Positions 9,485 through 34,291 of a stretch of 34,291 bases of DNA are shown here, piece by piece (the first letter of the stretch is position 1; every line of letters starts with the position of its first letter). The notes below the pieces were generated by a model. The model saw only the letters and a program-made list of their open reading frames with translations. It did not search any database and was not told the DNA's origin. The position numbers and the translations under genes are program-made. The DNA comes from a virus. Where the stretch lies: positions 1 to 34,291 of IMG/VR virus record IMGVR_UViG_3300028595_000039; one strand, written 5' to 3'.

Positions 9485-10456
9485 TCAGGTGTCGGTTGCC
9501 AGGAACAGCATGCCGAGGTCGGCGGCGGTGATCTCAAAGTCGAACGCCTGCTCGATCTCGTAGATGTCCGCGCTGCGGTCCAGGCTGTAATACTCTTTGA
9601 TGACCGCGCCAAACTCGTTGGCGCCGCCATTGAGAGTTGCCCAGGTGAACATACGGCCAGCGCTCGGCAGCATGGGGTTGGCGGCTGGGCTGACGTAGCA
9701 CAGCAGCGCTCCGTCCTCGTCCGCCAGCTGAGCGGTGGTTGTGCTAGACGCAGACTCATTGCTGGTCACGTTGGTGACGGACATACGATAGACGTTATCC
9801 AGGCCCAACGCACTGGCAAGAGCGCTGTCGGTCACGGCCGGGTTGCTCAGCCCGCTGATGTGTTTGATGCGGTCAACCACCTGCTCGGCGTCCTGCAAGA
9901 CGTCGTGTGTCTTCTGGCCGCACACCAAAGTGTTTGGCCGGAAGCCGGTCTTGGTCTCGATGTCGGACATCTTGTCGCGGATGTCGCTCACCGGAGTACC
10001 GCCGCTTGCGTCCCACTTGGTGCTTGGCGTGGTGTCGATCGCGCCAGTCCAAGTCGAGGTCGCGAAAAACGTCGACGCAAACTGAGACTCGCAGTTGAGC
10101 ATGGCCTGCTGCATCAGGAATTCGGCGTGGAATCGACCGAGGTCGAAGTCGCTGGTCGCGTCGTCCTGGTTGGACTTGGCCATGAACTCGGCCCAAACCT
10201 CACACTCGTAAGTATTTGTCAGGTCGATGCCGTACGCGCCTTCAGCCGCAAAACCGCCAGGGGCGCGCTTCTGCATGTTGTTGCGCAGCCAGTATTCTTT
10301 GGTGAACACCGGGTAGTAACCGGTCTTCTTGCTGACCGGAGTCGTGCCGAAAACACGGTGGCCAACAAACTTGGCCATGTCCTGCGCGTAGACCTGCGCG
10401 ACGTCCGTCAACAGTGGGTTGACGTACAGGTTGGAAGTCAGTGGTTGATTGGGCAT
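9485..10456 (-). CDS. Major capsid protein
   Basis: The 323-residue protein opens MPNQPLTSNLYVNPLLTDVA, a capsid-like N-terminal arm with no long cleaved prohead domain, followed by YYPVFTKEYWLRNN (E-loop-like). The central part has RDKMSDIETKTGFRPNTLVC and QKTHDVLQDAEQVVDRIKH, the helical P-domain style of HK97-fold capsid proteins, and it ends with beta strands (YYSLDRSADIYEIEQAFDFE). It follows scaffold and decoration genes. The ribosome site GGAGAG lies 8 bases before the start. A separate scaffold gene is consistent with an unfused capsid subunit. Confidence 0.88.
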   Translation of the reverse strand: MPNQPLTSNLYVNPLLTDVAQVYAQDMAKFVGHRVFGTTPVSKKTGYYPVFTKEYWLRNNMQKRAPGGFAAEGAYGIDLTNTYECEVWAEFMAKSNQDDATSDFDLGRFHAEFLMQQAMLNCESQFASTFFATSTWTGAIDTTPSTKWDASGGTPVSDIRDKMSDIETKTGFRPNTLVCGQKTHDVLQDAEQVVDRIKHISGLSNPAVTDSALASALGLDNVYRMSVTNVTSNESASSTTTAQLADEDGALLCYVSPAANPMLPSAGRMFTWATLNGGANEFGAVIKEYYSLDRSADIYEIEQAFDFEITAADLGMLFLATDT

Positions 10457-10468
10457 CTCAATGCTCTC

Positions 10469-11344
10469 CTACAGCTTGGTGTACTCAAGCCACGCATCCC
10501 GCAAGTAGATGTCGTCGTTGGCATGAGTGCCTGGTTTGAGGGTTAGTGCCAGAGGCGCGTGCGCCGTGATGTCTGCGGCTGCCAGAGTCACGGTGTACTC
10601 TGCCTCGGTTGCGACTGCGAGCGCTGCGGTGTTGCCGCCGGCGTTTGAGTCGCCGGTGCCGACAAACGCGCCAACAGCGATAACGGCCGCAGTGTCGGTG
10701 TTGCTGCCCTTGGCGAGCTTCAAATGCACGGTCACATCCTGAGACGCGTCAAGGTCGCCAGGCAAGTGGTTGTGGCCAAACTGAGCCTCTGCCTCGTCGG
10801 TGGCAACCCACTTGATCTGCAGGCCCTTGTCGGCCGCGGCGCTGATCCGCTCAAGGATCGGCGTGCTGTCGCTGGCCATGATCCCGCCGTGACCGGCGAG
10901 GTTGGTGATGTCGTCGCTGTTGATCTCGCGCAAGCTGTCGAGCGGAAGATTGACGCGGCCGTACTTGGCCTCGCCCCCGCACTGCAGCGCAACGCTGATC
11001 TTCTCGCCAGCGCCGCTGGCTGCAAAGATCGCGTAACCCAACACGCGGCCACCGTCCGCTGCGGTGATGCAGCGACCAACCGAGTCGGTCATGACTGCGG
11101 CACCGGCCGCAACAGCAGCACCGGCCTCAACCTTGGCGACGCCGCGGTACGCAACGTTTGCGGCGTCGCCGGCGGTGTCTGGCGCGTCGGTCAAAACACC
11201 GACCGCATTCATGCCCTGCGTGGCGCAGTACGACACCTTTTTGGCGGCTGCCAGGTAGACGAATCGATGCTGGTACGAGCTCAGGTCTGCATTAGCCTGC
11301 AGCCCGCCGAGCATCCCGATGTCAGAAGTCCAAGCGGCGGTCAT
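10469..11344 (-). CDS. Capsid decoration protein: DUF2190-like plus C-terminal beta domain
   Basis: The first about 120 residues of 291 match a DUF2190-type capsid cement protein (QHRFVYLAAAKKVSYCATQG, VLTDAPDTAGDAANVAYRG, VEAGAAVAAGAAVMTDSVGR, ISVALQCGG). The last 160 residues are an extra beta-rich domain (LQIKWVATDEAEAQFGHN, YTVTLAAADITAHAPLALTL, IYLRDAWLEYTKL) that looks like a jelly-roll. DUF2190 proteins are normally about 110 residues, so this is a longer, two-domain form. It probably sits on the capsid surface; a ligand for the outer domain is not shown. AAGGGG precedes the start. Confidence 0.75.
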   Translation of the reverse strand: MTAAWTSDIGMLGGLQANADLSSYQHRFVYLAAAKKVSYCATQGMNAVGVLTDAPDTAGDAANVAYRGVAKVEAGAAVAAGAAVMTDSVGRCITAADGGRVLGYAIFAASGAGEKISVALQCGGEAKYGRVNLPLDSLREINSDDITNLAGHGGIMASDSTPILERISAAADKGLQIKWVATDEAEAQFGHNHLPGDLDASQDVTVHLKLAKGSNTDTAAVIAVGAFVGTGDSNAGGNTAALAVATEAEYTVTLAAADITAHAPLALTLKPGTHANDDIYLRDAWLEYTKL

Positions 11345-11347
11345 TGA

Positions 11348-12184
11348 CTAGCCCCTTTCTTTTGCGAGCTCAGCGTAGAGCTCAGGGTTTTGCTTCACGG
11401 CGCGGATGCGAGCCCTCGCAGCGTCGAGTTTCGGGTCGGCCGCCATGAGCGCCTTGGCCGCTTCCTCGAGCCTGGCCTTGCCCTCGCTCACTGCGGAGCC
11501 GCGCGTACCGACGGTCTTGAGCGCTTCGCTCTGAGCAACGGCCTTGGAGCTGGCCTCGAGCGTCGCAAACAGCGCCTCGGCTGCCTCTGCACTCTGGCTC
11601 TTCTCGGTGCCGTAGAGCAGCTCAGCCAAGTCCTCAGTCGTGCTGCCTGGCACATGGGCCAGCGACTTCTCTGCGCGGGCTTGCCAAATTTCCTTGGCGC
11701 GCTTGGCAGCGAGTTCTTGCAGTGCGTCGGAGGTTGCCTTGTTTTCCTTCTCCAGCGCTGCGATCTTGTCGGCCTGGGCCTTGAGCGCAAGCTCGTAGTC
11801 CTTAGCGGCCTTGGTTTCGGCTTCCATGTCTTTTGCTTTCTCGGCCGGCACTTCCGGCGCAGCGGCTGGCTCGGCAACCTCTTGGGCTTCCGGCTCGCCA
11901 AACGTGATTCGAGCACCGGCGAGCTCATCCTGATACGCGTCAACGATCCGGGTGAGTGCGGTGGCAACGGTGCGGCCCTGCTTCGACATACCCTTCGGTA
12001 GGTTCAAGGCCTTCTCTGCCGGGCACGGTGTTTCCAATGCCGCGGCGAAACCTTCGACGTCAATCTTAGGCACGGTGGTTTCTCCTGATTCAGACTTGGT
12101 CACTGGATACCGGGGCTTTTTGTTGGCGCCCGCATCAACAGCGCTGACCTCGTCGACCTCAAAATGGCGCACGCGTCTTGGCAT
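11348..12184 (-). CDS. Capsid scaffold protein
   Basis: The 278-residue protein sits between the protease gene and the decoration/capsid genes. Its N-terminus (HFEVDEVSAVDAGANKKPRY) resembles the conserved leader found next to XkdF-type proteases in phages. The centre is a long charged helix (KAAKDYELALKAQADKIAALEKEN) and the C-terminal half is Ala/Glu/Lys-rich helix, as in scaffolds. The N-terminal motif may be a protease recognition or leftover protease segment. The start has only a weak purine stretch (AAGAAAG) upstream. Confidence 0.8.
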   Translation of the reverse strand: MPRRVRHFEVDEVSAVDAGANKKPRYPVTKSESGETTVPKIDVEGFAAALETPCPAEKALNLPKGMSKQGRTVATALTRIVDAYQDELAGARITFGEPEAQEVAEPAAAPEVPAEKAKDMEAETKAAKDYELALKAQADKIAALEKENKATSDALQELAAKRAKEIWQARAEKSLAHVPGSTTEDLAELLYGTEKSQSAEAAEALFATLEASSKAVAQSEALKTVGTRGSAVSEGKARLEEAAKALMAADPKLDAARARIRAVKQNPELYAELAKERG

Positions 12185-12264: not shown

Positions 12265-12294
12265 AGCCTATTTGTCTGTTGATTGGTTTGTCAA
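12265..12294 (-). promoter_or_regulatory. Candidate promoter before the scaffold gene
   Basis: On the minus strand TTGACA (12289-12294) is followed after 18 bases by TAGGCT (12265-12270), about 80 bases before the scaffold ATG. The -35 match is exact, the -10 is only fair (TAnnnT pattern), and the spacer is one base long. The site overlaps the end of the protease gene. Confidence 0.4.
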
Positions 12295-13139
12295 GTGTTT
12301 GTTTGCTGGGCTAGTTCCACAACAGTGACCTCAGGCATCTCCGACTCTGGCATGTCCTCTCGAGTCAGCATGCCGCCAGGCGAGAACGCGTTGATCTTTC
12401 CGTCGAGGTACGCTTGCCATAGAGACTCAGGCAAATACACGCCGAGCCACCATGATCCGCTGTGGGCATAGCTGTCGCCGAATGGCCTGCGCCAGATAGA
12501 GTGCGGCTCGCCGTCCATTGCGGCTCGGTAGTCTTCTGGCGTGGGGTACTGCTCGACCCACGACTCAACAACCTCTGCGTCGTACGCAACGCCCATGTGC
12601 TGGATTCCAACAACGCGGCTGCGGCAGAGATAAGCATGCGCCGCCCCCTGCACGGCCTTAGGGTCAACCCAGTCGTCGTGTGCATCCGCCTCCGGCGAGC
12701 CCGTGTTGCCGTATGGGTCGAGCACTGCGCCGTATACGATCTGCAATGCGTCAGACTTTGTCGCGCGCACCGGGTTGTCGCGCAATGCCGCACGCAGCTT
12801 GCGTGCCTTGCGGGCCATTTGCCCGGTATCGCCAAGCTTACGGACTGCGGCGGGATGCGGCGCGCGGATATCAGCCATGCCACCAAGTGCACGCGCAGCA
12901 TCCCGCCCAAGCGCCACCACGACACGCGGCCGGCGCTTTTCGATCTGCTCTAGCAAGTCCTCCGACAGCACAGCGAGCGACACGTCGGACCGGCGCAGCC
13001 CGGCCGGCTCCAGCAGCGTGCTGTACAGCGCGCGCCCATCGGCGCCGCTGAATGGCTCGCCTGTAGCGATGTCGTCTCTGCTGGCGACGCTGCCGACTAG
13101 CAGCGCCTGCGCGCCTTCGTTCCAAACTGCGTCAACCAT
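12291..13139 (-). CDS. Capsid maturation protease XkdF-like, fused to UDG-like domain
   Basis: The start is ATG at 13139, with GAGG 5 bases upstream; a GTG six bases earlier is an alternative. Of 282 residues, about 10-122 look like a uracil-DNA-glycosylase fold: LLVGSVASRDDIATGEPF, SGADGRAL, then a mid-domain strand (RRPRVVVALGRDAARALGG) and APHPAAVRK. Spacing from the VG to G.PF matches family 4 enzymes, but motif A reads VGSVAS where active enzymes have VGEAPG, and the four Fe-S cysteines are absent. Residues about 128-256 match XkdF: QIVYGAVLDPYG, VVGIQHMGVAYDAEVVESW, GSWWLGVYLPESLWQAYL and a GFSMGG-like AFSPGGM. H181 and S253 are candidate catalytic residues. It lies just before the scaffold gene, where capsid proteases normally are. 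Confidence 0.85.
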   Translation of the reverse strand: MVDAVWNEGAQALLVGSVASRDDIATGEPFSGADGRALYSTLLEPAGLRRSDVSLAVLSEDLLEQIEKRRPRVVVALGRDAARALGGMADIRAPHPAAVRKLGDTGQMARKARKLRAALRDNPVRATKSDALQIVYGAVLDPYGNTGSPEADAHDDWVDPKAVQGAAHAYLCRSRVVGIQHMGVAYDAEVVESWVEQYPTPEDYRAAMDGEPHSIWRRPFGDSYAHSGSWWLGVYLPESLWQAYLDGKINAFSPGGMLTREDMPESEMPEVTVVELAQQTNT

Positions 13140-13152
13140 ACTCACCTCAAAA

Positions 13153-13226: not shown

Positions 13227-13865
13227 TTACTTGGTTGGTTGGGTTGTGTCAAAGTTAGCTAATCTATCCAGCAACCGACGCGCCGCCGCTTCGCCCTTTG
13301 CTGGCGCCGCTTTGCATTCTTCGCAGCCGCACTGTGGCGGGTTGTTCAATCGGATGAATTCGGCGTCGTATACCAACAATGCGCCTGCGTCCCACGCGCG
13401 CGCGGCTGCGTGTTCGCATGTGTAGCGGCCGCATGACGTGCTTAGCTTCTTGCCTACGGAACGGAAGATCCGCGCGTGATACTTGCCTCCGTCCTTACTG
13501 TAGCAGGAGACTCCCCTGTATTTCCCTTTATGGCTACCCTTGTTGGCCATGTTTTGCCTCTGGGTGCAGACGCGCAGGTTCGATTTGCGGTTATCCAGGC
13601 CGTCACCATTGACGTGATCCACCTGCTCTCCGACCCGCGCTTTAGCTACCACCCTGTGAAGCAATACCCATACGTGCCCACTGTCATCCGTCCGTGACAA
13701 CCTCTGGCAATAGCACGTTCTTTTGCTACTGTGCGCGTGCCACCTATTCTCACGAATCGCCAGCCACGTGTCATAGTCGACAACGCCCCACCGGCCAAGC
13801 GTCAACTTCATGTAGACGCCGCTTGGTCTGATAACAGCCTCATTCGGCCACCTGGCATCAATCAT
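13227..13865 (-). CDS. HNH homing endonuclease with AP2-like domain
   Basis: The 212-residue protein has an HNH-type nuclease (LLHR near 68-71, QVDHVNGDGLDNRKSNLR at 81-98) followed by an AP2-type DNA-binding domain (KYRGVSCYSKDGGKYHARIF and EHAAARAWDAGALLVYDAEF, about 115-173). This is the usual domain order of free-standing phage homing endonucleases. A CxCxxC stretch (QCGCEECK) near residue 178 is extra. The start overlaps the upstream stop by 4 bases; a Met at 13811 is an alternative. It sits between the methylase-helicase and protease genes, so it is likely a selfish insertion in the morphogenesis operon. Confidence 0.88.
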   Translation of the reverse strand: MIDARWPNEAVIRPSGVYMKLTLGRWGVVDYDTWLAIRENRWHAHSSKRTCYCQRLSRTDDSGHVWVLLHRVVAKARVGEQVDHVNGDGLDNRKSNLRVCTQRQNMANKGSHKGKYRGVSCYSKDGGKYHARIFRSVGKKLSTSCGRYTCEHAAARAWDAGALLVYDAEFIRLNNPPQCGCEECKAAPAKGEAAARRLLDRLANFDTTQPTK

Positions 13866-16075
13866 TCGAACAACCCCAACTGTGGCTTGGTTGATGGGTC
13901 CGCCTGATTAAGGTTCGCTACCGCCTGTTGCCAGTAGGACCGCTTCAACTCGACGCCAACGAACCGCCGTCCCTTGCTCACGGCAACATACCCCTCGCTT
14001 CCGATTCCGCCAAACGGACTCAGCACCGAATCACCAGGAGCGCTCCACAGGTCTATTCCGCGCTCGATCACCTGTAGCTGCAGAGGGCAGATATGCCGCT
14101 CATCATCCTCTTCGCGCGCGCTCCTGTGCTGCAGTGTCTGACTTGGGTTAATGTCCGTCCAAACGGGAGAAGCGTACCGCTGCCATACCTCGACGGGGAA
14201 TTCATCGTGCGTGTGGCTTACCGGTGCCGCGTTTTTTCCTGGCTTGCGCATTGTGACGAGATAGTCCGGGATGCCTTGCCGGCTCATCGCTGAGTCTTTC
14301 CTTAGTTGCTTCCACAGCAGCCCGAGCGCCTTTGTGCGTTGCATCGCCGTAACTGGGTCTTTCCAGATGCAAACCTCGCTATGGTAAATCCATCCGGCGC
14401 CCTCAAATGCACGAATCATCTCGCCGCGAAAGTCGCGGATGCCGATGTACCCGTGGTGGAATTTCGACGTCGGAAGGTTCATGCAGTGGAATGAAAGTAG
14501 CCGACCCGGCATGGTCACACGATACAGCTCCGTGATTAGAAATCTGAAGTGATCGTAGAACTCATCGTTGGTCTTACAGTTGCCCATGTCTCGGTCGCTG
14601 TTGCTGTATGTGTAAAGCGATGCAAACGGCGGGCTGAATATCGTGTATCCTATCGAATCGTCGTGGAGACTTCTTGTTTCTTCGACGCAATCTCCTAGCC
14701 TCATTTCCCACATGTCGCCGGTCGCAACTTCTGTTTCGTACTCCGACACGTCCCTGCTGGCGCCTCGTATCTCGCCACGCACGATATCGTTCGTCTTGCT
14801 CGTCATCTCTTGCGACATTCGCTCAGCGTCCCTTTCTTTCCGGTTCAGATTCTCAATCACCGCGCCCTCCATATCGGCGCTGATTCTGTAGACGTCTACC
14901 GGGTTCTTTTGCCCAAACCTCCAGCACCTGCGTACTGCCTGATAGTAGCCCTCCCACGAATCATTCATCCCGACAAATGCCATATTGCTGCAGCATTGCA
15001 GGTTAAGGCCAAAGCCGAAGATAGAACTCTTGCTCACCAGTACGCGAATATCACCAGCCAGGAAGTCTACGATTGCCTGCTCCTTTTTCTCGCGCGAATC
15101 GCTACCTCGGATCTCAACAGCCCCGCTGATTGTCTTTCGGCACGCCTCAGATTCCGCATTTAGGTTGCACCACACAATCCACTGGCCGTCTTGCCCATTC
15201 ACTATATCGGCGCACTTCTCAACTCGAGCAGATGTTGAGTCTCTCCGTGCTCTAATTCTCTCCTGCAGCGTAGCAGCTGGTTCGGCAAATAGCTGGCCAT
15301 CCTTTGCGTCTGATTCTGTCTCGACGACTACATCGTGGACTCTCAGCGGCGGAAGGATAAAACCATCGTCGCTGTACCCTAGATCTGACGGGCTCTTCAC
15401 CATCGCGGCCCATGAGCACATCCACTCCCAGAACCTTGACTGAGCGTGTCCCTTTAGCCTCCATTTCTGCGTCTCGCCGCCGTCGTGCACGAAGAACATA
15501 GACAGCATCTCTGAACGAGACATAGCACCAATAAACTCGGAGTGATTGCCTAGCTCCATATGGTCGTTAGGCGCTGGAGTCGCTGTGCAGGCTAGCTTAT
15601 ACGCCGTTTCCGCGAATGTCTCTATTATGAGGCCCCTGGTCTTACCGTCGTACGCCTTCAAGATCGACGACTCGTCCAGTACAACGCCGACAAACTCCGA
15701 TGCGTCGAAGTGTTCCAGCATCTCATAGTTTGCAACCGTAATGCCGTCCGTTACGTCTGACTGGCTGCGACGATAGCAGACATTCGGAATGCCAAACTTT
15801 ACGGCCTCGCGTACGGTTTGCGGCGCTACTGCCAGCGGAGCCAAGATTAGTACTTTGCCTCCGGATTGCTCGCAAACCCGGCGAGCCCACTCCAGCTGCA
15901 TCGCCGTCTTTCCCAGTCCTGTATCGCAAAACAGAGCCGCACGGCCACGCCGCAATGCCCAGCGAACTATGTCGGCCTGAAACGGGAACAGCTTTTGATT
16001 GAGCTCTCCGGCGTCAAATCCGGTCGGAATGTCCTTGATTGCCTTGCGCTCCAGGAAGCGCTCGTATGCATCCAT
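13862..16075 (-). CDS. SNF2/DEAD-type helicase fused to N4/N6 DNA methyltransferase
   Basis: The start is ATG at 16075 with AGGAGGA 7 bases upstream, giving 737 residues. The N-terminal half is an SF2 helicase: Walker A DTGLGKT (51-57), motif II LDESS (133-137), motif III-like CTATPAP (163-169) and motif VI QAVRRCWRFGQ (379-389). The C-terminal half is a beta-class methyltransferase: SPPF (481-484) and, after it, SPFGGIGSEGY (686-696) with GRRFVGVELKRSYW (702-714), i.e. IV before I. The first residue of the motif I DPF is Ser here. The last residues PQLGLFE resemble a beta-clamp binding motif. Such fusions occur in phages; modification of viral DNA, possibly for anti-restriction, is inferred. 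Confidence 0.9.
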   Translation of the reverse strand: MDAYERFLERKAIKDIPTGFDAGELNQKLFPFQADIVRWALRRGRAALFCDTGLGKTAMQLEWARRVCEQSGGKVLILAPLAVAPQTVREAVKFGIPNVCYRRSQSDVTDGITVANYEMLEHFDASEFVGVVLDESSILKAYDGKTRGLIIETFAETAYKLACTATPAPNDHMELGNHSEFIGAMSRSEMLSMFFVHDGGETQKWRLKGHAQSRFWEWMCSWAAMVKSPSDLGYSDDGFILPPLRVHDVVVETESDAKDGQLFAEPAATLQERIRARRDSTSARVEKCADIVNGQDGQWIVWCNLNAESEACRKTISGAVEIRGSDSREKKEQAIVDFLAGDIRVLVSKSSIFGFGLNLQCCSNMAFVGMNDSWEGYYQAVRRCWRFGQKNPVDVYRISADMEGAVIENLNRKERDAERMSQEMTSKTNDIVRGEIRGASRDVSEYETEVATGDMWEMRLGDCVEETRSLHDDSIGYTIFSPPFASLYTYSNSDRDMGNCKTNDEFYDHFRFLITELYRVTMPGRLLSFHCMNLPTSKFHHGYIGIRDFRGEMIRAFEGAGWIYHSEVCIWKDPVTAMQRTKALGLLWKQLRKDSAMSRQGIPDYLVTMRKPGKNAAPVSHTHDEFPVEVWQRYASPVWTDINPSQTLQHRSAREEDDERHICPLQLQVIERGIDLWSAPGDSVLSPFGGIGSEGYVAVSKGRRFVGVELKRSYWQQAVANLNQADPSTKPQLGLFE

Positions 16076-16096
16076 CCGTTTTCCTCCTGAGCCCGG

Positions 16097-16124
16097 ATAG
16101 TAACATATATGCAATAATAGTCAA
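16097..16124 (-). promoter_or_regulatory. Promoter before the helicase-methyltransferase gene
   Basis: On the minus strand TTGACT (16119-16124) and TACTAT (16097-16102) are 16 bases apart in an AT-rich stretch, about 20 bases before the AGGAGGA site. This places a transcription start inside the otherwise continuous head-gene operon. Confidence 0.6.
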
Positions 16125-16495
16125 GTCGCAGACTTGTGTTGCACAAGCCCATCAAACCGGTCAAAAAACAGCGCCGCCTCTTCGCGCCAGGACCAGACGT
16201 CAACCGGGCCATACCAGTGCTCGACCTCTTTCGCTATGCGCGTTCCGATGCCTTGTCGCCTGTGCGATGCGCGCACGTAAAACGCAGCCCTTGGCCTCAA
16301 CCCTGGCCAAAATACCAGCGCCCACCCTAGCACCATGCGGCGGTCCTCTGCCACAACGACGCGGCCCTTGAGCTCGCCACGCCTGCATTGACGCAGCCGC
16401 CCGAGCATTGTCCCGTCGCCTCGCATGTTGAGCGAAGCCAATGCCTTGTATTCATGGGCCGACAGGTCTTGTACCTGTGCGCGGTATATCAGCAT
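16121..16495 (-). CDS. GNAT-family acetyltransferase
   Basis: The 124-residue protein has the GNAT fold order: beta strands with VVVAEDRRMVLGWALVFWPGL, then AFYVRASHRRQGIGTRIAKE whose RRQGIG (79-84) is the acetyl-CoA-binding motif A, then VEHWYGPVDVWSW and a short C-terminal helix-strand. Length is near the lower limit of the family. Its substrate cannot be read from sequence. It begins 2 bases after the MuF gene stop, so it is co-transcribed with head genes, where a virion or host-protein modifying role is possible but not shown. Confidence 0.82.
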   Translation of the reverse strand: MLIYRAQVQDLSAHEYKALASLNMRGDGTMLGRLRQCRRGELKGRVVVAEDRRMVLGWALVFWPGLRPRAAFYVRASHRRQGIGTRIAKEVEHWYGPVDVWSWREEAALFFDRFDGLVQHKSAT

Positions 16496-16497
16496 GG

Positions 16498-17460
16498 CTA
16501 CCTCGCACGAATAGGGTGCAACGCCTCAGCGCAACGACAAGACGGGTGTTTCGCTGGCCCGTCCGATCCGTCCATGTACTGGCCAAACAGCGGCGCGCGT
16601 GTCCTGTCGAGAAGCGCACACTCAGGGCACGCCTTGCCGTCCGCGACCCACTCGCGCTCGGCGTCAAACCCTAGCCTCGTCGCTCGGTCGCGCCAGGTCT
16701 GGCGCTGAGAAAACGCCTCGGCGTTGATCATTTCGGTACGCGCAATGTTTTCGGCCCGGCGCTTCACGAGTTTGGCGCGGTACCTGTCAACTGCCTTGTT
16801 GAGTTTTGCACCAGACAGGCCGGCGTCAGCCTGGGCGGCGCGGAAACGCTCGACCATAGCCTCGTTGTACGGCCCACGGTTGCCTGGCAGCACGCCGACG
16901 CTCTGCCTAATGTCGCGCGCGATCGTCGTCGGGTGTATGCCAGTATCAATGCCGCGCTGAATCTGCGACCGTATCAGCCTGCGCTGCGCAACGGCAACGT
17001 CCTGATACACGAGCCGAGTCGCCTCGGCCTGCACGTACGTCGTCGCAGCCATAATCCTGTCAGGGTCAACGTAGTCGCCGGCGTAGACGGCTGTCTCGCC
17101 AACGTACGCAATAGGCTCTTCACCAGGCTCCGCTTTGCCAGCCGCCCGTAGCTCGGTCGCAAATGCCTTGTCGAAAACCTTGTCCGCCTCGTCTGCAGAC
17201 TCTTGCCAGACGCCGAGCATTGCCTTTGCGACACGTCCCTCGAGGTCGCGGTACGCCTGCTCGCCTCGCTCATCGTGTACCGCCACGCCTTCGCCGGGCG
17301 TGAGCACTCGCCGCATTGGTGCCTCGATAGCCTTGCCGAGCTCGTCAGCCCACCCGCGAAAGGCCTTGTCGACTGCGTCTGCGTAGCTGTCCGCAATCTG
17401 ATACGCACGCACGACTTCGAGCGGCGCGGTCCTGAGCGTTACCCACGGCTGACGTGGCAT
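16498..17460 (-). CDS. MuF/SPP1 gp7-type head morphogenesis protein
   Basis: The 320-residue protein follows the portal gene directly (TAG then ATG). It has the head-morphogenesis domain of SPP1 gp7/Mu gpF proteins: RRLIRSQIQRGIDTGIHPTT, QSVGVLPGNRGPYNEAMVER, VKRRAENIARTEMINAEAFS, then a C-terminal metal-binding-like CPECALLDRTRAPLFG and HPSCRCAEALH. This minor head protein is packaged with the genome in its relatives. The tail beyond the motif is only a few residues, so no toxin or enzyme domain is attached. Confidence 0.88.
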   Translation of the reverse strand: MPRQPWVTLRTAPLEVVRAYQIADSYADAVDKAFRGWADELGKAIEAPMRRVLTPGEGVAVHDERGEQAYRDLEGRVAKAMLGVWQESADEADKVFDKAFATELRAAGKAEPGEEPIAYVGETAVYAGDYVDPDRIMAATTYVQAEATRLVYQDVAVAQRRLIRSQIQRGIDTGIHPTTIARDIRQSVGVLPGNRGPYNEAMVERFRAAQADAGLSGAKLNKAVDRYRAKLVKRRAENIARTEMINAEAFSQRQTWRDRATRLGFDAEREWVADGKACPECALLDRTRAPLFGQYMDGSDGPAKHPSCRCAEALHPIRAR

Positions 17461-18753
17461 CTACTCGTCCAACGCCGGCGGGGTTAGACCGGCGAGCTCA
17501 GTCAATTCGCGCTGCGTCTCAGGTCTTGTTAGGTCAACGCCAACCCCAGAGATTGCGGTCAAAAATTTCGACAGCCGCTCGAGGTCAATCTTCTCAATGT
17601 CTGTGTGGACTAACTCGGGCCACAGCGCGCGCGGGACTTTGTTGATGCGCATCAGCGGGTTGATTAGCTGCGCCTGCAACGTTCGCCGCAGGTTGCTAAG
17701 AATTGCTGACAACGCAAGCGTGAATAGGTTTGTGGCGCTGTCCGCAAGCGCAAATGACCCGTGCTCATTAACTCCGAATTGCAGGAACTGGGCGAGGCAC
17801 GCCATGAGTATGCTTGCCTGGTAATACTTCTTGACCTTGTCCGTGTCGTACAGCTTGCGCGAAGTCTCACCGCCGTACTGCCGCAGCCGGAATCCACTGT
17901 ACGTGCCGTCCGGGTTTCTCTCCGGCGGCGTGATCGCATACAGTGCTTCGCTTTGCCGCATATCTGCCAACATGCCCTTGATCGCCGCAAGCGCCTGCGA
18001 CTGCGAGCTGCCTGTGCTGGCCGTCAAATACTCGAGCGGCACCTCCATATGAGGCATACCGGTGGCGTCGCGCTCAATGCCGACGGCCTCCATTTCTTCG
18101 ATGCGTTTCAGGAAGTACCACGCCCGATAGCCAGACCGGAACCCGCTGCGTCCCTCTGGGTTGTTTTTGGTCTTGTCGAGCCGGAAGTGCACGCATTTCT
18201 CCAGCGGGACAATTGCGCGTGTGCGCCCGGCGGTTGAGCCGGTGACAAACTGCTCGAACGCAACCGGACGGTCGCCGTCAAAGATCCATTGCCAAATTGA
18301 GTCTTGGCCTCGCAGGTCAATGCATCGCCATCCGTAGCGGCCGTCGTTGTAGTCGCTCCGCAGGGAGTCGTCCTCCTGCTCAGGTCCCTTGCGCAGTTTG
18401 TACGTAACCTCTGACTCGGCGTGCCCAAAGATGTACGCCGTCGCCTGCTCGCCGACCATGTCTTTCCAATGGTGGCTCATATCGGACATACACGATTCAA
18501 CAAACGCCGCCTCGGCATACGCAATGTTGGACTCGTCTGCCGGCTTGAGTCGCCAATCAGGCGCCAACATCAGCGTACGCACGACAGACCAAATTCCGCC
18601 AGCTGGCGCGCAGTTGTCAACCATCTCGCGAAAAGCGATCGCGCCCTTGCGCCCGTGCAGCGAGCGCAGTACGTCCTCTGTTACGCTGCCTCCGGACCTA
18701 CTTAGGCCCGACAGCCCTGCGATTGCTGTTGGCTCTGGCTTGGGAGTTTCCAT
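17461..18753 (-). CDS. Portal protein
   Basis: The 430-residue protein lies between the terminase block and MuF, the conserved place for the portal. It has a portal-type layout related to Mu gp29-like/DUF935 portals: helical N-terminus (AIAFREMVDNCAPAGGIWSV), beta segments around DLRGQDSIWQWIFDGDRP, IVPLEKCVHFRLDKTKNNPEG, SGYRAWYFLKRIEEMEAVGI and a helical C-terminal stem (RRTLQAQLINPLMRINKV). It forms the dodecameric ring through which DNA enters the capsid (family knowledge). There is no clear ribosome site at 18753, so a nearby alternative start is possible. Confidence 0.88.
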   Translation of the reverse strand: METPKPEPTAIAGLSGLSRSGGSVTEDVLRSLHGRKGAIAFREMVDNCAPAGGIWSVVRTLMLAPDWRLKPADESNIAYAEAAFVESCMSDMSHHWKDMVGEQATAYIFGHAESEVTYKLRKGPEQEDDSLRSDYNDGRYGWRCIDLRGQDSIWQWIFDGDRPVAFEQFVTGSTAGRTRAIVPLEKCVHFRLDKTKNNPEGRSGFRSGYRAWYFLKRIEEMEAVGIERDATGMPHMEVPLEYLTASTGSSQSQALAAIKGMLADMRQSEALYAITPPERNPDGTYSGFRLRQYGGETSRKLYDTDKVKKYYQASILMACLAQFLQFGVNEHGSFALADSATNLFTLALSAILSNLRRTLQAQLINPLMRINKVPRALWPELVHTDIEKIDLERLSKFLTAISGVGVDLTRPETQRELTELAGLTPPALDE

Positions 18754-21943: not shown

Positions 21944-22353
21944 CGCCGCCACTCATCCTCAATCAGGTCGCCAATGGCCCGCTCGATCTCCAACAGCCGC
22001 GCAACGGTCGTCTCGCCTGGCAGCGACTCAACCAGATACGCGCGCAGCTTGTGGTGCCGGCGCTTTTTCTCGGCCTCGTCAGAGTGTCCTCTGTTGCAGC
22101 CTCCGCCGCAGCAGTTGCGTTCGTCGTCTAATGGGTCCAACGCGTCGAGGCACAGCCTTGGCGGCTCCTCCTCGTGGTCCATCCTAGACGGGCCGTCGTC
22201 GTCGTCTGCCGCTTCCCACATATCCAAACAGCAGCACACGCTGCATGGCTCTTCTTCCTCGGACAGGTCCACGTACTTGCACGTCTCGCAGTCGAGCTCG
22301 TCGTCATCCACCATAGCCACACCCATTCCACTTACACTCTCGTTCTCGCTCAT
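21940..22353 (-). CDS. Cys-rich acidic hypothetical protein
   Basis: The start is ATG at 22353, preceded by GGAGGAAACGG and overlapping the TGA of the upstream VRR-NUC gene, giving 137 residues. It has a Cys cluster CETCKYVDLSEEEEPCSVCC and a later ERNCCGGGCNRGH, so it could be zinc-binding. The C-terminal third is a helical, charged segment (HKLRAYLVESLPGETTVARL). I recognise no family and assign no function. Confidence 0.65.
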   Translation of the reverse strand: MSENESVSGMGVAMVDDDELDCETCKYVDLSEEEEPCSVCCCLDMWEAADDDDGPSRMDHEEEPPRLCLDALDPLDDERNCCGGGCNRGHSDEAEKKRRHHKLRAYLVESLPGETTVARLLEIERAIGDLIEDEWRR

Positions 22354-22706
22354 CCGTTTCCTCCAAATCCGAGGCCAGTCAGCAACCGGACCGCCTCTTG
22401 TTTCGTGCGCACAACAGCGCAGACCCAACCTTCGCCTTGCATCATATCTAGCCACGACGACTGCTCCGGTCGCAGCCGTCCCTTTGCCGACTTGAGTTCG
22501 AGCGCCACGCCACGTACATCTGGCGCCGCCGGGCAGCGCTCGAGTATTAGCAGGTCAGCGACGCCTGGTTGCATCCCCGCCCGATTTGCGATTGCGGCCT
22601 GCGCCGCATTGCGCACGTGCTCATTCGCCACGTGTATCGGCCTGAGCCCGCGCCTGCGGCACCATGCTACGATCGTCTCCTGTAGTCGCGCCTCCTCTCT
22701 GTTCAT
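22350..22706 (-). CDS. VRR-NUC domain nuclease
   Basis: The 118-residue protein matches the VRR-NUC nuclease family in length and motifs. It has an N-terminal helix (EEARLQETIVAWCRRRG), then GMQPGVADLLIL with D51, ALELKSAKGRL with E70 and K72, and Q82 in RPEQSSWLDMMQ. These are the PD-(D/E)xK-type catalytic residues. Phage members act on branched DNA or related intermediates; the substrate here is not known. Its start overlaps the upstream stop (ATGA). Confidence 0.82.
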   Translation of the reverse strand: MNREEARLQETIVAWCRRRGLRPIHVANEHVRNAAQAAIANRAGMQPGVADLLILERCPAAPDVRGVALELKSAKGRLRPEQSSWLDMMQGEGWVCAVVRTKQEAVRLLTGLGFGGNG

Positions 22707-25553: not shown

Positions 25554-26084
25554 AAACCGCACTGTGTCTGGCCCGGCTCTTGGGTCTCCAGCAACCTCGG
25601 CCATCAGCCCGTGCATCGTATGCGGACACCCAAGCGCATGGCACAGCTCATGCCGCACAACGCATTGCCGGTGCTCTGGTCGCAGCGTCTCTCGTATCTC
25701 AATTAGCGACCCGTCAAGGCACCCCACTCCTGACCCGTAGTGCAGGCCTCCTGTGTGAGTTGTCGCCGACACGTCAAAGTGGTCCGGCTCGCCGATACGC
25801 ACCAGGGCAAGCCCATACGGTTGTCCGCTCGTGCCAATGTGCCTCACGCCGCGGTAGCGCAGCAGCCGCGCGCCTGCGACGTGGTTGAGGTAGAGCACGG
25901 CATCGGCGGTGTGCTCTCGTAGCCAGTCAGGTTGCCCGTCCTGCACTACAACCCATACCGGGTACGCGCACGGCCGCTCGTATCGGCTCGCCGCTGGCCC
26001 GGCGCAGCCGCACAGCGCAAGCGCGAAGAACAGCAGGAACGCCAGCACCAGGACGGCGAATGCTACTCGGCCTGTGTCGATCAC
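25512..26084 (-). CDS. Metzincin-like lipoprotein
   Basis: A GTG at 26084 overlaps the TGA of the dUTPase gene, giving 190 residues. A hydrophobic signal (AVLVLAFLLFFALALCGC) is followed by a lipobox-like LCGC with C28 as likely lipid site. Residues 145-155 read HELCHALGCPH, the full metzincin HExxHxxGxxH signature, and M161 (HGLMAE) fits the Met-turn. A zinc metalloprotease anchored in the host envelope is the direct reading; the target, or a role in superinfection exclusion or release, is open. The longer upstream frame is inside the dUTPase gene and is not used. Confidence 0.8.
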   Translation of the reverse strand: MIDTGRVAFAVLVLAFLLFFALALCGCAGPAASRYERPCAYPVWVVVQDGQPDWLREHTADAVLYLNHVAGARLLRYRGVRHIGTSGQPYGLALVRIGEPDHFDVSATTHTGGLHYGSGVGCLDGSLIEIRETLRPEHRQCVVRHELCHALGCPHTMHGLMAEVAGDPRAGPDTVRFLRIRAGELDSALP

Positions 26085-26503
26085 GTCCCAGTGCTCCCAA
26101 ACCCGCCACCTCCGCGGGACGTTTCGGTTAGCTCGTCCGTCTCGATCAGCTCCGTGTATGGCACGCGTTGGAACACGATCTGCGCGATGCGGTTGCCGGG
26201 CGCGATTTGGCACAGGCTGGAGCCGTGGTTGCGCAGCAGGACGCAGACCTCGCCGCGATAGTCGCTGTCGATCGTCCCCGGCGAATTCGCCGCGACAACC
26301 CCATACCGAGCAAGCCCGCTCCTGCTTCTGATCTGCCCCTCCCACCCTTCCGGTATCTCAAGCCTGATTCCCGTGCGGACCTTTACGCACCCGCCCGGAT
26401 TGACGCCGACGTGCTCAATCGCCACAAGGTCATAGCCCGAGCTTCCCTCTGTCGCCTTCTGCGGCATAACCGCGCCGTCATCGAGTTTCACTTTGATTTG
26501 CAT
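26081..26503 (-). CDS. dut: Deoxyuridine triphosphatase (dUTPase)
   Basis: The 140-residue protein has the five motifs of the trimeric dUTPase family in order: SSGYDLVA, IRSRSGLARYGV, ANSPGTIDSDYRGE, NRIAQIVFQR and the C-terminal RGGGGFGSTG. It hydrolyses dUTP to dUMP and pyrophosphate, which keeps uracil out of DNA and supplies dTMP synthesis. All key residues look intact. It is one of the few enzymes in the small-gene operon and overlaps the downstream lipoprotein gene by 4 bases. Confidence 0.95.
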   Translation of the reverse strand: MQIKVKLDDGAVMPQKATEGSSGYDLVAIEHVGVNPGGCVKVRTGIRLEIPEGWEGQIRSRSGLARYGVVAANSPGTIDSDYRGEVCVLLRNHGSSLCQIAPGNRIAQIVFQRVPYTELIETDELTETSRGGGGFGSTGT

Positions 26504-27830: not shown

Positions 27831-28103
27831 CTAGTCCAGACAATACCACGCTGGCAGATTAACGCAATAGCCTGGCACGACTCGGCCGCTGGCCCACATC
27901 TGCCTGGCGGCTGGCATCCTGCGCGACGTGGTGTACGAGCCGCAGTTCATGCAGTGGATCACGTGCCAGCCCTGCTCATCTCTTGCAATGGCCGGCCCGC
28001 CGCACACGTGGCATGCCGGCGGCTCACCGTGGCCGTACACAATCCACCAATTGGTGGTGTCGTCTACAAGGGACGGCCTGCGCCTTGAACCTTTGCCGTT
28101 CAT
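27831..28103 (-). CDS. Small zinc-ribbon-like protein
   Basis: The ATG at 28103 overlaps the upstream TGA (ATGA). The 90-residue product has CHVCGG and, about 20 residues later, CMNCGS, the CxxC...CxxC spacing of a zinc ribbon. The start is basic (NGKGSRRRP). A nucleic-acid-binding role is likely but not shown. Confidence 0.65.
   Translation of the reverse strand: MNGKGSRRRPSLVDDTTNWWIVYGHGEPPACHVCGGPAIARDEQGWHVIHCMNCGSYTTSRRMPAARQMWASGRVVPGYCVNLPAWYCLD
27840..27867 (-). promoter_or_regulatory. Phage-type promoter inside the small-gene operon
   Basis: Minus strand: TTGCGT (27862-27867), 16-base spacer with CAGCGTGG, TATTGT (27840-27845), about 18 bases before the next ATG. It matches the element upstream of the lipoprotein gene at 19329-19356 across both boxes and part of the spacer. 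Confidence 0.55.
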
Positions 28104-28345
28104 TCCACACACCACCAAAGCGGATCAAACAACCCACCGATAGGGCCGGCCGGCGCGACGCCAGCATGTGCCGGGTAGTACACGTGGTGACCTGACTCAG
28201 TCACCTCGGCGCGCAGCTTCCCGGACGACCTCAGCTCAATAGTGACCCGGCAGTACGTCGACTGCGGCATTCGGCCGCCGAAGTCAGACCACCGGACAGA
28301 CCCGTGTTTCTGCGCGTAGGCTAGCACCTTGGCCCTTGCGCTCAC
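28100..28345 (-). CDS. Small helix-turn-helix-like protein
   Basis: A GTG at 28345 overlaps the previous TGA (GTGA). The 81-residue product reads VSARAKVLAYAQKHGSVRWS, then YCRVTIELRSSGKLRAEVTE, an alpha-helix then beta-wing pattern of a winged HTH domain. It ends in an aromatic tail (LFDPLWWCVE). A DNA-binding role is inferred. Confidence 0.6.
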   Translation of the reverse strand: MSARAKVLAYAQKHGSVRWSDFGGRMPQSTYCRVTIELRSSGKLRAEVTESGHHVYYPAHAGVAPAGPIGGLFDPLWWCVE

Positions 28346-32576: not shown

Positions 32577-34291
32577 CTATTCGACGTCGTTGATTGCCGA
32601 GCGCTTGATTGCGATCACTCTTGGCCTCGAGGCTGGTCCGGTTCGCTTGACGGTGTTGTGGCCAGACTCCGACACCAGCCATCCACTGTCCGCCCAGTGA
32701 CGCAATATTGCCCTTGGATCGTGGCCAAGCTTGCGGATCTGCTCCCTTAGCGCCGGAGGATACCAGCACAACTCCTCCCACTCACCGGCGTGGTCGTGCC
32801 ACACTCCCCACCACCCGCCGTTGGCCGGCTCTTCCGTCTCTAGCTGGGACTTGACGTCGAAAAACCGCTTGCGGTTGGCCAAGGCAACGGAGTAGATGTC
32901 GGCTAGCGCCCTGGCGTGCAGGCAGTCGTCCCCATTGGCGATAGACTCAGACTGGATATGGTCCGCAACGTACGCCACTGCATCACCAGGCCATGGCAGC
33001 CCTAGGGCCTCTTGCGCCAGCTCTGCTGCGAGATGTACAGTAGCCAGGTAATTGGCTAATCGCCCCAGGATCGACGCTGAGCCCTTTTCGGCCCCATCTG
33101 TGAGTACTGACCCCAACGTGGCCGCAGCAAGCGCGTGACGGGCTGCCCAGGCCCCGTATTGACTACTTCTGGACGCCAGGTATTCCACCCACTCGCGGGC
33201 CGCGTGCCCATGGTGCTCATAGAGTGCCCGCTTTAGTCGGTCTGGTACGTCGCCGGCATGCCCGCCAAAAGGGTTGCCCCATAGCGTCAGGACACGCCCA
33301 CGGGTGCCAGCGGACTGGTCAAAGTCCACAAGTCGACCCTCTCCGCTCGTCAGGACAACGGTACGCCATGAGCGCAGAGCCTGTTGCCCTGTCTTACTTC
33401 CCCTTGTCTTACCCTGGCCATTCGTTAGGCAATAGACAATCTCTGGCACTACGGACTTTGCCCCGTATGACTTGGCGCGCTTGCTGTCGTCAATCAATAG
33501 CGGGAGGTCTGTGAGGTTTGCCGCCCTCCGCTCTATCCCAACCTGAGTTGTATCCCAGCTGGAGATCAGCGACGTCGGGCTCTGATCGTCAGGGTCACCC
33601 CAAGCGCTTGCTGCGACGGCCAGCGCGGTTGTCTTTCCGGAGCTCGTCAACCCGCTGTAGTCTACAACAAAGTTACGCGCGCCGGGTATCAATCGGAGCA
33701 GCGGCGCGGCGAGCGAGGCGTACAGCCCAAACTGTATCATCGGGTAAGGTCTGACCAATTCCATCGCCTCGAGCCAGCCAGTAATCGTGCCACGTGTCGC
33801 AAGGCAATCCTCTAGGTGTGCGTCGCCCTTGTCGGTTGGTGAATATCGGACCGGTGAGCGGCCTGGGTCTGTCGCAATGTGGTCGCCGCCAACCAGGTAC
33901 CCCTGCTGGCCGTCTTTGCCTTGCCAGCCGAAGTGGTTGCTTCCCTTGTGTCTCGGCGTGACATTCATGTTTGCGGCCTGGTACGCTTCGAGGTATTGGA
34001 TCACCAGTTTCGCGTTCGTGGCATTGACCTGCAGGCCCTTCGGGCTCAGGATCCGCGCTGTGTCTGCGGCGCTTGCTAGTGCTTCCCTCGGTACAAGCTG
34101 GCTGTGCCATCGCTTTCGCCAGCACCAGCGCACGTCAATCCACACGTCACCTGTGTCTACATCGGACACGGAGCCGGCGACGACAATCGGGCACGGGCTC
34201 GCCTCGACACGGCGAGCGCCTTGGTTTGTTCGCGTTAGCTTTGCGACAGACCCGTCTGGCCCTATGCTCCAGCCATCTGGTATCGTCGCGT
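32577..34291 (-). CDS. DUF927-type primase-helicase, cut by right edge
   Basis: An open minus frame runs from TAG at 32577 to the right edge, over 570 residues; the GTG at 34169 is not the true start because the frame continues upstream with PDGWSIGPDGSVAKLTR. The DUF927/virulence-E-like layout is clear: that N-terminal beta domain, then VDYSGLTSSGKTTALAVAAS (Walker A at about 33630-33653), LLIDDSKR (Walker B) and a C-terminal helical, winged part. Such proteins are phage or plasmid replicative helicases, often paired with a primase. The adjacent iteron gap fits this role. Confidence 0.88.
   Translation of the reverse strand, partial: ATIPDGWSIGPDGSVAKLTRTNQGARRVEASPCPIVVAGSVSDVDTGDVWIDVRWCWRKRWHSQLVPREALASAADTARILSPKGLQVNATNAKLVIQYLEAYQAANMNVTPRHKGSNHFGWQGKDGQQGYLVGGDHIATDPGRSPVRYSPTDKGDAHLEDCLATRGTITGWLEAMELVRPYPMIQFGLYASLAAPLLRLIPGARNFVVDYSGLTSSGKTTALAVAASAWGDPDDQSPTSLISSWDTTQVGIERRAANLTDLPLLIDDSKRAKSYGAKSVVPEIVYCLTNGQGKTRGSKTGQQALRSWRTVVLTSGEGRLVDFDQSAGTRGRVLTLWGNPFGGHAGDVPDRLKRALYEHHGHAAREWVEYLASRSSQYGAWAARHALAAATLGSVLTDGAEKGSASILGRLANYLATVHLAAELAQEALGLPWPGDAVAYVADHIQSESIANGDDCLHARALADIYSVALANRKRFFDVKSQLETEEPANGGWWGVWHDHAGEWEELCWYPPALREQIRKLGHDPRAILRHWADSGWLVSESGHNTVKRTGPASRPRVIAIKRSAINDVE

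Follow-up and report, generated by a model that had tools for sequence, protein, structure and literature searches.

A uracil-DNA glycosylase (UDG)-like domain and an XkdF-type capsid maturation protease domain are fused in a single gene (12291–13139) of the window, by which we mean the whole stretch of DNA analysed: 34,291 bases, an entire IMG/VR virus record, which possibly covers only part of the viral genome. All window coordinates given here refer to features on the minus strand. The fusion is genuine and not an artefact, and dozens of uncultured viruses have it at the corresponding place in their head operons. The window gene is best read as the short end, or a reduced member, of a fusion family whose long members carry repair modules. 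To the fuller claim, that it is a reduced member of a multidomain head-protein family in which repair modules stand N-terminal to the XkdF protease, and that the UDG of the window is non-excising, we give about even chances.

Domain make-up and position of the fused gene

The gene encodes 282 amino acids in one uninterrupted frame, from an ATG at 13139 to a stop at 12291. An alternative GTG at 13145, two codons upstream, overlaps the GAGGTG ribosome-binding site, and ATG 13139 is therefore the likelier start. According to Pfam, a UDG-superfamily domain (residues ~1–122, 12774–13139) is followed by an XkdF (Peptidase_S78_2) capsid maturation protease domain (residues 127–257, 12369–12761), with both matches above their cut-offs: UDG PF03167 at residues 9–100 (E=2.2e-8, 34.7 bits against 24.3) and XkdF PF14550 at residues 127–257 (E=2.1e-11, 44.3 bits against 24). 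The AlphaFold2 model of the protein, calculated with 37 aligned sequences, has a mean pLDDT of 88.9, the blocks of residues 1–120 reaching 90–97, and its comparison with the PDB by Foldseek retrieved Tth UDG (1ui1) as best match (E=2.9e-7, probability 1.00), with UdgX entries close behind. The best 38 matches all belong to the UDG superfamily, as do 48 among the 50 matches listed, the other two being a phage family-A DNA polymerase (9qhs, rank 39) and a tRNA synthetase (6aa0, rank 49). A profile built from the UDG domain of the relatives likewise retrieved a family-4 UDG (4zbx, 1e-15) and UdgX (~1e-11). The preliminary description, which had read a UDG-like fold and an XkdF domain in one gene and had named structure prediction of both parts as a check, is thus borne out by Pfam and by the fold. 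Among the fold matches in BFVD, the best two extend over ~289 columns of the alignment to the window model, and therefore the UDG–XkdF fusion probably has unnamed counterparts there. Matches to the window model also include phage family-A DNA polymerases (9qhs; A0A7S5RHC2 and A0A6J5MU99), as would be expected if some phage polymerases contained a UDG-like domain.

Within the XkdF domain, His181 (12597–12599) and Ser253 of the FSPGG stretch (12381–12383), kept in 101/102 and 102/102 relatives, respectively, may be the catalytic residues, by analogy with Ser–His prohead proteases. Two XkdF proteins from ordinary cultured phages, of Lactococcus and Rhizobium, were found by Pfam to consist of XkdF alone, with no extra enzyme domain, and the label 'DNA methyltransferase' of phrog_1530 looks like a misnomer, since these proteins show only XkdF.

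The neighbouring genes constitute a head operon. Upstream are a portal protein (17461–18753; Pfam PF06074, E=3e-20) and a MuF-type head morphogenesis protein (16498–17460; Pfam PF04233, E=4e-8, and synteny). Downstream are a gene in scaffold position (11348–12184), syntenic with the relatives in spite of a weak family assignment, a head scaffold/cement-like gene (10469–11344; phrog_673, E=8e-18) and the major capsid protein (9485–10456; phrog_1005, E=2e-56). The fusion, placed between MuF and the scaffold and major capsid genes, occupies the usual protease place, as had been claimed from the window alone, and the relatives show the same order of portal, MuF, fusion, scaffold and major capsid protein, in many cases with MuF directly upstream of the fusion. 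In the window three genes lie between MuF and the fusion (13227–16495), where many relatives have no gap: a GNAT (16121–16495), an SF2 helicase with an N6_N4_Mtase DNA methylase (13862–16114) and an HNH endonuclease (13227–13865). Outside the fusion, the dUTPase that had also been reported for this genome was recovered (26081–26503; Pfam PF00692, E=9e-28), as would suit a phage whose DNA is kept free of uracil. A VRR_NUC nuclease (22350–22706), a Lar-like restriction alleviation protein just below cut-off (27831–28118) and a DUF927 protein (32577–34289) were also observed.

Residues lost and retained in the UDG-like domain

In family-4 UDGs, the catalytic glutamate of motif 1, the uracil-reading asparagine and the histidine of motif 2 have functional roles. 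The family-4-like motif spacing proposed earlier for the window domain holds (G-x-P-F at residues 27–30, VVVALG at 73–78 and HP at 95–96), and so do the losses then listed, namely the replacement of the catalytic Glu by Ser and the absence of the Fe–S cysteines. Motif 1 reads LLVGSVAS (residues 13–20, 13080–13103) where family 4 has hhVGEAPG, with Gly16–Ser17 in place of GE, so that the pattern GE[AG]PG with its Glu is absent and Ser17 stands for the catalytic residue; there are no cysteines in residues 1–125, and hence none for a 4Fe–4S cluster. That list was incomplete, having overlooked two further losses apparent from the alignments: Val57 (12969–12971) occupies the site that in the long relatives (TNAVP) is taken by the uracil-reading Asn, and a loop of ~24 residues that follows this site is missing. 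Because the motif-1 Glu, the uracil-reading Asn, the loop and all the Fe–S cysteines have been lost, uracil excision by the window copy is unlikely; judged by these residues, an active family-4 UDG in the window was rejected as a candidate, and the earlier idea of uracil reading or excision during packaging finds no support for this copy. In the ligase-bearing relatives described below, position 2 of motif 1 is Ala or another non-acidic residue, with Ala in most long relatives, which suggests that even those may not excise uracil.

Other positions have been retained. The motif-2 stretch Pro94–His95–Pro96 (12852–12860) is intact, its His being present in 79/80 relatives, and Phe30 is also conserved in the window domain. 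Arg110–Lys111 (12807–12812), a pair of invariant alignment columns, lies in the basic helix at the C-terminal end of the UDG-like domain, and residues 97–127 carry a net charge of +7. Most short forms show the same combination, with Asn and motif-1 residues lost and the motif-2 His–Pro and basic tail retained. With Glu, Asn, loop and Fe–S cysteines gone but His–Pro and the Arg–Lys tail kept, the window domain is most likely a non-excising binder. The reuse of the domain as a DNA- or capsid-binding part, suggested in the preliminary description, is accordingly the best supported of the options given there, and the window gene provides a case of a repair-enzyme fold retained after loss of its likely activity.

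The same pattern can be read differently. The UDG-like domain could be a purely structural propeptide that, through protein contacts, directs the protease to its place in the procapsid or assists its folding there, without contacting DNA, in which case its repair history would be irrelevant to its present job. The maintenance of the fold in the window and in most short forms, while catalytic residues were lost, agrees with such a role, and the SPN3US protease does have a targeting propeptide of its own (PMC7411985). However, the Arg–Lys tail and the motif-2 His–Pro are among the best kept positions, as expected for contacts with nucleic acid rather than with protein, and we consider the purely structural role possible but on the whole unlikely.

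UDG families 5 and 6 have non-acidic motif-1 residues, and the existence of such families, together with the retention of Phe30 and His95 and with a dUTPase suggesting that uracil matters to this phage, could be taken to mean that the domain still recognises uracil in DNA, by binding or slow excision through non-classical residues, either during packaging or after entry. Against this stand Ser17 in place of Glu, Val57 in place of Asn, the loss of the following loop and the lack of Fe–S cysteines, which make continued uracil recognition quite improbable. A domain that binds without excising remains the reading that we favour, and it is the one considered below in the light of the longer relatives.

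Relatives carrying ligase and putative DNA-end-cleaning modules

We collected relatives from IMG/VR by scanning with the window protein (15 loci) and with an XkdF alignment (64 loci). Further loci were added by scans with alignments of the 3'-phosphoesterase (3'-PE) and UDG segments, which inflates the counts of those architectures and biases the sample. A search of GTDB genomes retrieved only two MAG contigs, and in a tblastn search of cultured phages with the window protein and two parts of a long relative (L017) no record covered 80% of the query. Among 102 non-redundant XkdF proteins, partly picked by UDG and 3'-PE patterns, 45 have the UDG–XkdF architecture of the window. Another 29, of ~1000–1600 amino acids, contain in order an NTase-like segment, an ATP-dependent DNA ligase, UDG, a putative LigD-type 3'-phosphoesterase and XkdF; the others are UDG–PE–XkdF (7), NTase–LIG–PE–XkdF (4), XkdF alone (5, some of them cut by the contig end) and various architectures (12). 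UDG is present in 76/86 proteins whose 5' side is uncut, in this same pattern-biased set. Some relatives lack UDG and every other module, and the protease can therefore do without a fused part in some cases. In a tree of the protease domain, the presence of ligase requires many changes, at least 7 of which are forced by supported branches, indicating that modules were gained or lost repeatedly. The preliminary description was correct in recognising two domains, but it overlooked the long members of the family with their ligase, 3'-PE and NTase-like segments, which make DNA repair the likely origin of the UDG-like domain.

The evidence differs between segments. Pfam matches in representative relatives reach 7e-20 for UDG and 2e-24 for DNA_ligase_A_M, and in Foldseek the AlphaFold model of L017 retrieved ATP-dependent DNA ligases (best E=2.4e-17). 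All of the 50 matches listed are ligases or ligation complexes, and therefore this comparison gives fold evidence for the ligase and for no other segment of L017. The ligase motifs are nearly invariant, with the motif-I Lys and EG each present in 34/34 relatives. For the segment after UDG, LigD_N is the recurrent Pfam match (16/20 3'-PE members, best E=2e-4), at scores below cut-off where bits are given (one member at 18.7 against 31.1 bits). The 3'-PE profile retrieved five PDB entries (best E=7e-4), with alignments over the HxDLRLE and ...LxGxY... stretches; three of these (3p4h, 3n9b and 2lj6) are labelled ATP-dependent DNA ligase and two (5dmp and 3p43) uncharacterized. His and HxDxR of the 3'-PE are conserved in 48/49 relatives. 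The NTase-like segment is a motif reading only (G[GS]..DxD in 37/38 and the third Asp in 32/38): Pfam NTP_transf gave no match in 11 members and a weak one in a single relative (E=0.035), and the structure model is poor in this region.

The uracil-reading Asn is present in 23/28 ligase-bearing and 9/52 other relatives (Fisher p=2e-8, kinship ignored). When corrected for relatedness, this link is not significant (3.1 independent pairs in the same direction and 0.1 in the opposite one, median p ~0.25), and with so few independent pairs we treat it as suggestive only. In L049 (4622–7702 of that locus), a long fusion, the ligase is matched in part and has motif I altered to RYGG, and the UDG lacks the Asn and the loop; ligase and UDG look to have decayed together.

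Several relatives show additional segments. In L007, L010, L128 and L133 a methyltransferase-like segment is inserted between the NTase-like segment and the ligase, matching Pfam Methyltransf_11 in L007 (E=1e-8) and recognised by eye in the other three. L064 (5892–8459) and L070 (4545–8423) have a 2H phosphoesterase (PF13563) ahead of UDG and XkdF on the chain, L064 having also a DUF5661. Another conserved stretch (RGGTEVGVARARDLKNG...) separates the UDG-like domain from XkdF in L040–L062 and loci like them, and the UDG and XkdF protein of L162 (5005–7518) has an acidic composition, as in halophilic viruses.

The occurrence of a ligase, a putative DNA-end-cleaning domain and a better kept UDG fold on one protein suggests that a set of repair enzymes is packed along with the genome in some viruses. 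The N-terminal modules could instead be conflict effectors, injected to disarm a host defence, such as one that senses nicked or modified DNA, and not to repair the phage genome. Methyltransferase and 2H phosphoesterase domains added in relatives would suit this role, and polyvalent proteins, in the part of their description covered here, combine domains of this kind with a C-terminal assemblin-like peptidase (PMC5512222). Nevertheless, taken together the ligase, 3'-PE and UDG folds look like a single set for mending DNA, in which the ligase and 3'-PE motifs are nearly invariant, and we regard an effector role as very doubtful. The joining of two genes by a frame or assembly error, raised in the preliminary description together with a search for the same fusion in other phages, is negligible as an explanation, since nothing was found in its favour, the frame is uninterrupted and dozens of independent contigs show the domains fused in this order at the same head-operon place.

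Proposed working and comparison with known systems

We tentatively propose, at somewhat less than even chances, that the family constitutes a virion-borne, single-chain DNA-mending kit, freed by its own protease and widespread in tailed viruses, of which the window lineage keeps only a non-excising UDG. What the sequences suggest about packaging, cleavage and activity is the following. The fusion protein would be made with the late head genes and would enter the procapsid together with the scaffold. During maturation the protease domain may cut itself loose and cut other head proteins; no cleavage site was identified. Once released, the repair modules of the long forms would remain with the genome and pass into the next cell, where they may repair nicks, blocked 3' ends and, possibly, deaminated cytosines of the incoming DNA. 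The UDG-like module, the only one left in the window, would not excise uracil but would bind DNA or the assembling head and help to place the protease. If the long forms work as proposed, a repair set would be carried in the particle, released by the shell protease and handed over with the genome, which would explain how phage DNA that has aged or broken in the particle becomes usable at entry. The family would then offer a specific example, open to testing, of a multidomain phage protein that is injected, as well as a source of single-chain ligase and 3'-end-cleaning enzymes of possible laboratory use.

Parts of this scheme have precedents. In T4, the prohead protease cuts the internal proteins and Alt, which are retained in the head (PMC7411985). 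Polyvalent proteins of phages and conjugative elements, in the part of the description by Iyer et al. (2017) covered here (PMC5512222), are large, multidomain and presumed to be packaged and injected; an assemblin-like peptidase, for which a role in virion assembly was proposed, is always C-terminal, and the domains include Pol-beta NTases, GNATs and 2H phosphoesterases. A C-terminal prohead protease on injected multidomain proteins is thus known, whereas a fusion family with UDG, ligase or 3'-PE was not found described in the literature searched, as far as covered: titles and abstract openings, mostly off-topic, contained no UDG–, ligase– or LigD–protease fusion, and the portion of PMC5512222 consulted describes no uracil glycosylase, DNA ligase or LigD 3'-phosphoesterase, the word 'uracil' occurring once in its main text, in the reference list. 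As in the polyvalent proteins, at least two domains of different activity are placed on one protein with a C-terminal prohead-type peptidase, UDG-like and XkdF in the window and up to five segments in the relatives; the UDG, ligase and LigD 3'-PE modules belong to the fusion family and not to the polyvalent proteins as described in that portion of the source.

Each module also has its own closest known system. Family-4 UDG and UdgX are the nearest solved structures by profile and fold, and the window domain has their motif spacing and motif-2 His in common with them; unlike them, it lacks the Fe–S cysteines, the motif-1 Glu, the Asn and one loop, is ~70–80 residues shorter and is fused to a protease. 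The protease domain agrees with the XkdF/Peptidase_S78_2 family in scoring above the Pfam cut-off, in its conserved His and Ser and in its usual head-operon place, and differs from the two ordinary cultured-phage members in carrying the UDG-like domain. Bacterial LigD, an end-joining enzyme, has a 3'-phosphoesterase and a ligase on one chain, as do the long relatives with their ATP-dependent ligase and putative LigD-type 3'-PE, but the long relatives have additional UDG-like and protease domains, a different domain order and an insert before HxDxR, and no LigD polymerase domain was seen in them. A protein of the archaeal virus record ANMV-1, annotated as 'ATP-dependent DNA ligase' (AJP62006.1), also joins ligase and 3'-PE and is encoded in the head region, adjoining a gene that reads as the portal, but is devoid of UDG-like and XkdF domains. 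Finally, gp87 of Arthrobacter phage Ottawa, like the fusion family, has a nucleotide/RNA-processing enzyme domain N-terminal to XkdF, although this is a 2H phosphoesterase instead of a UDG and the protein is smaller.
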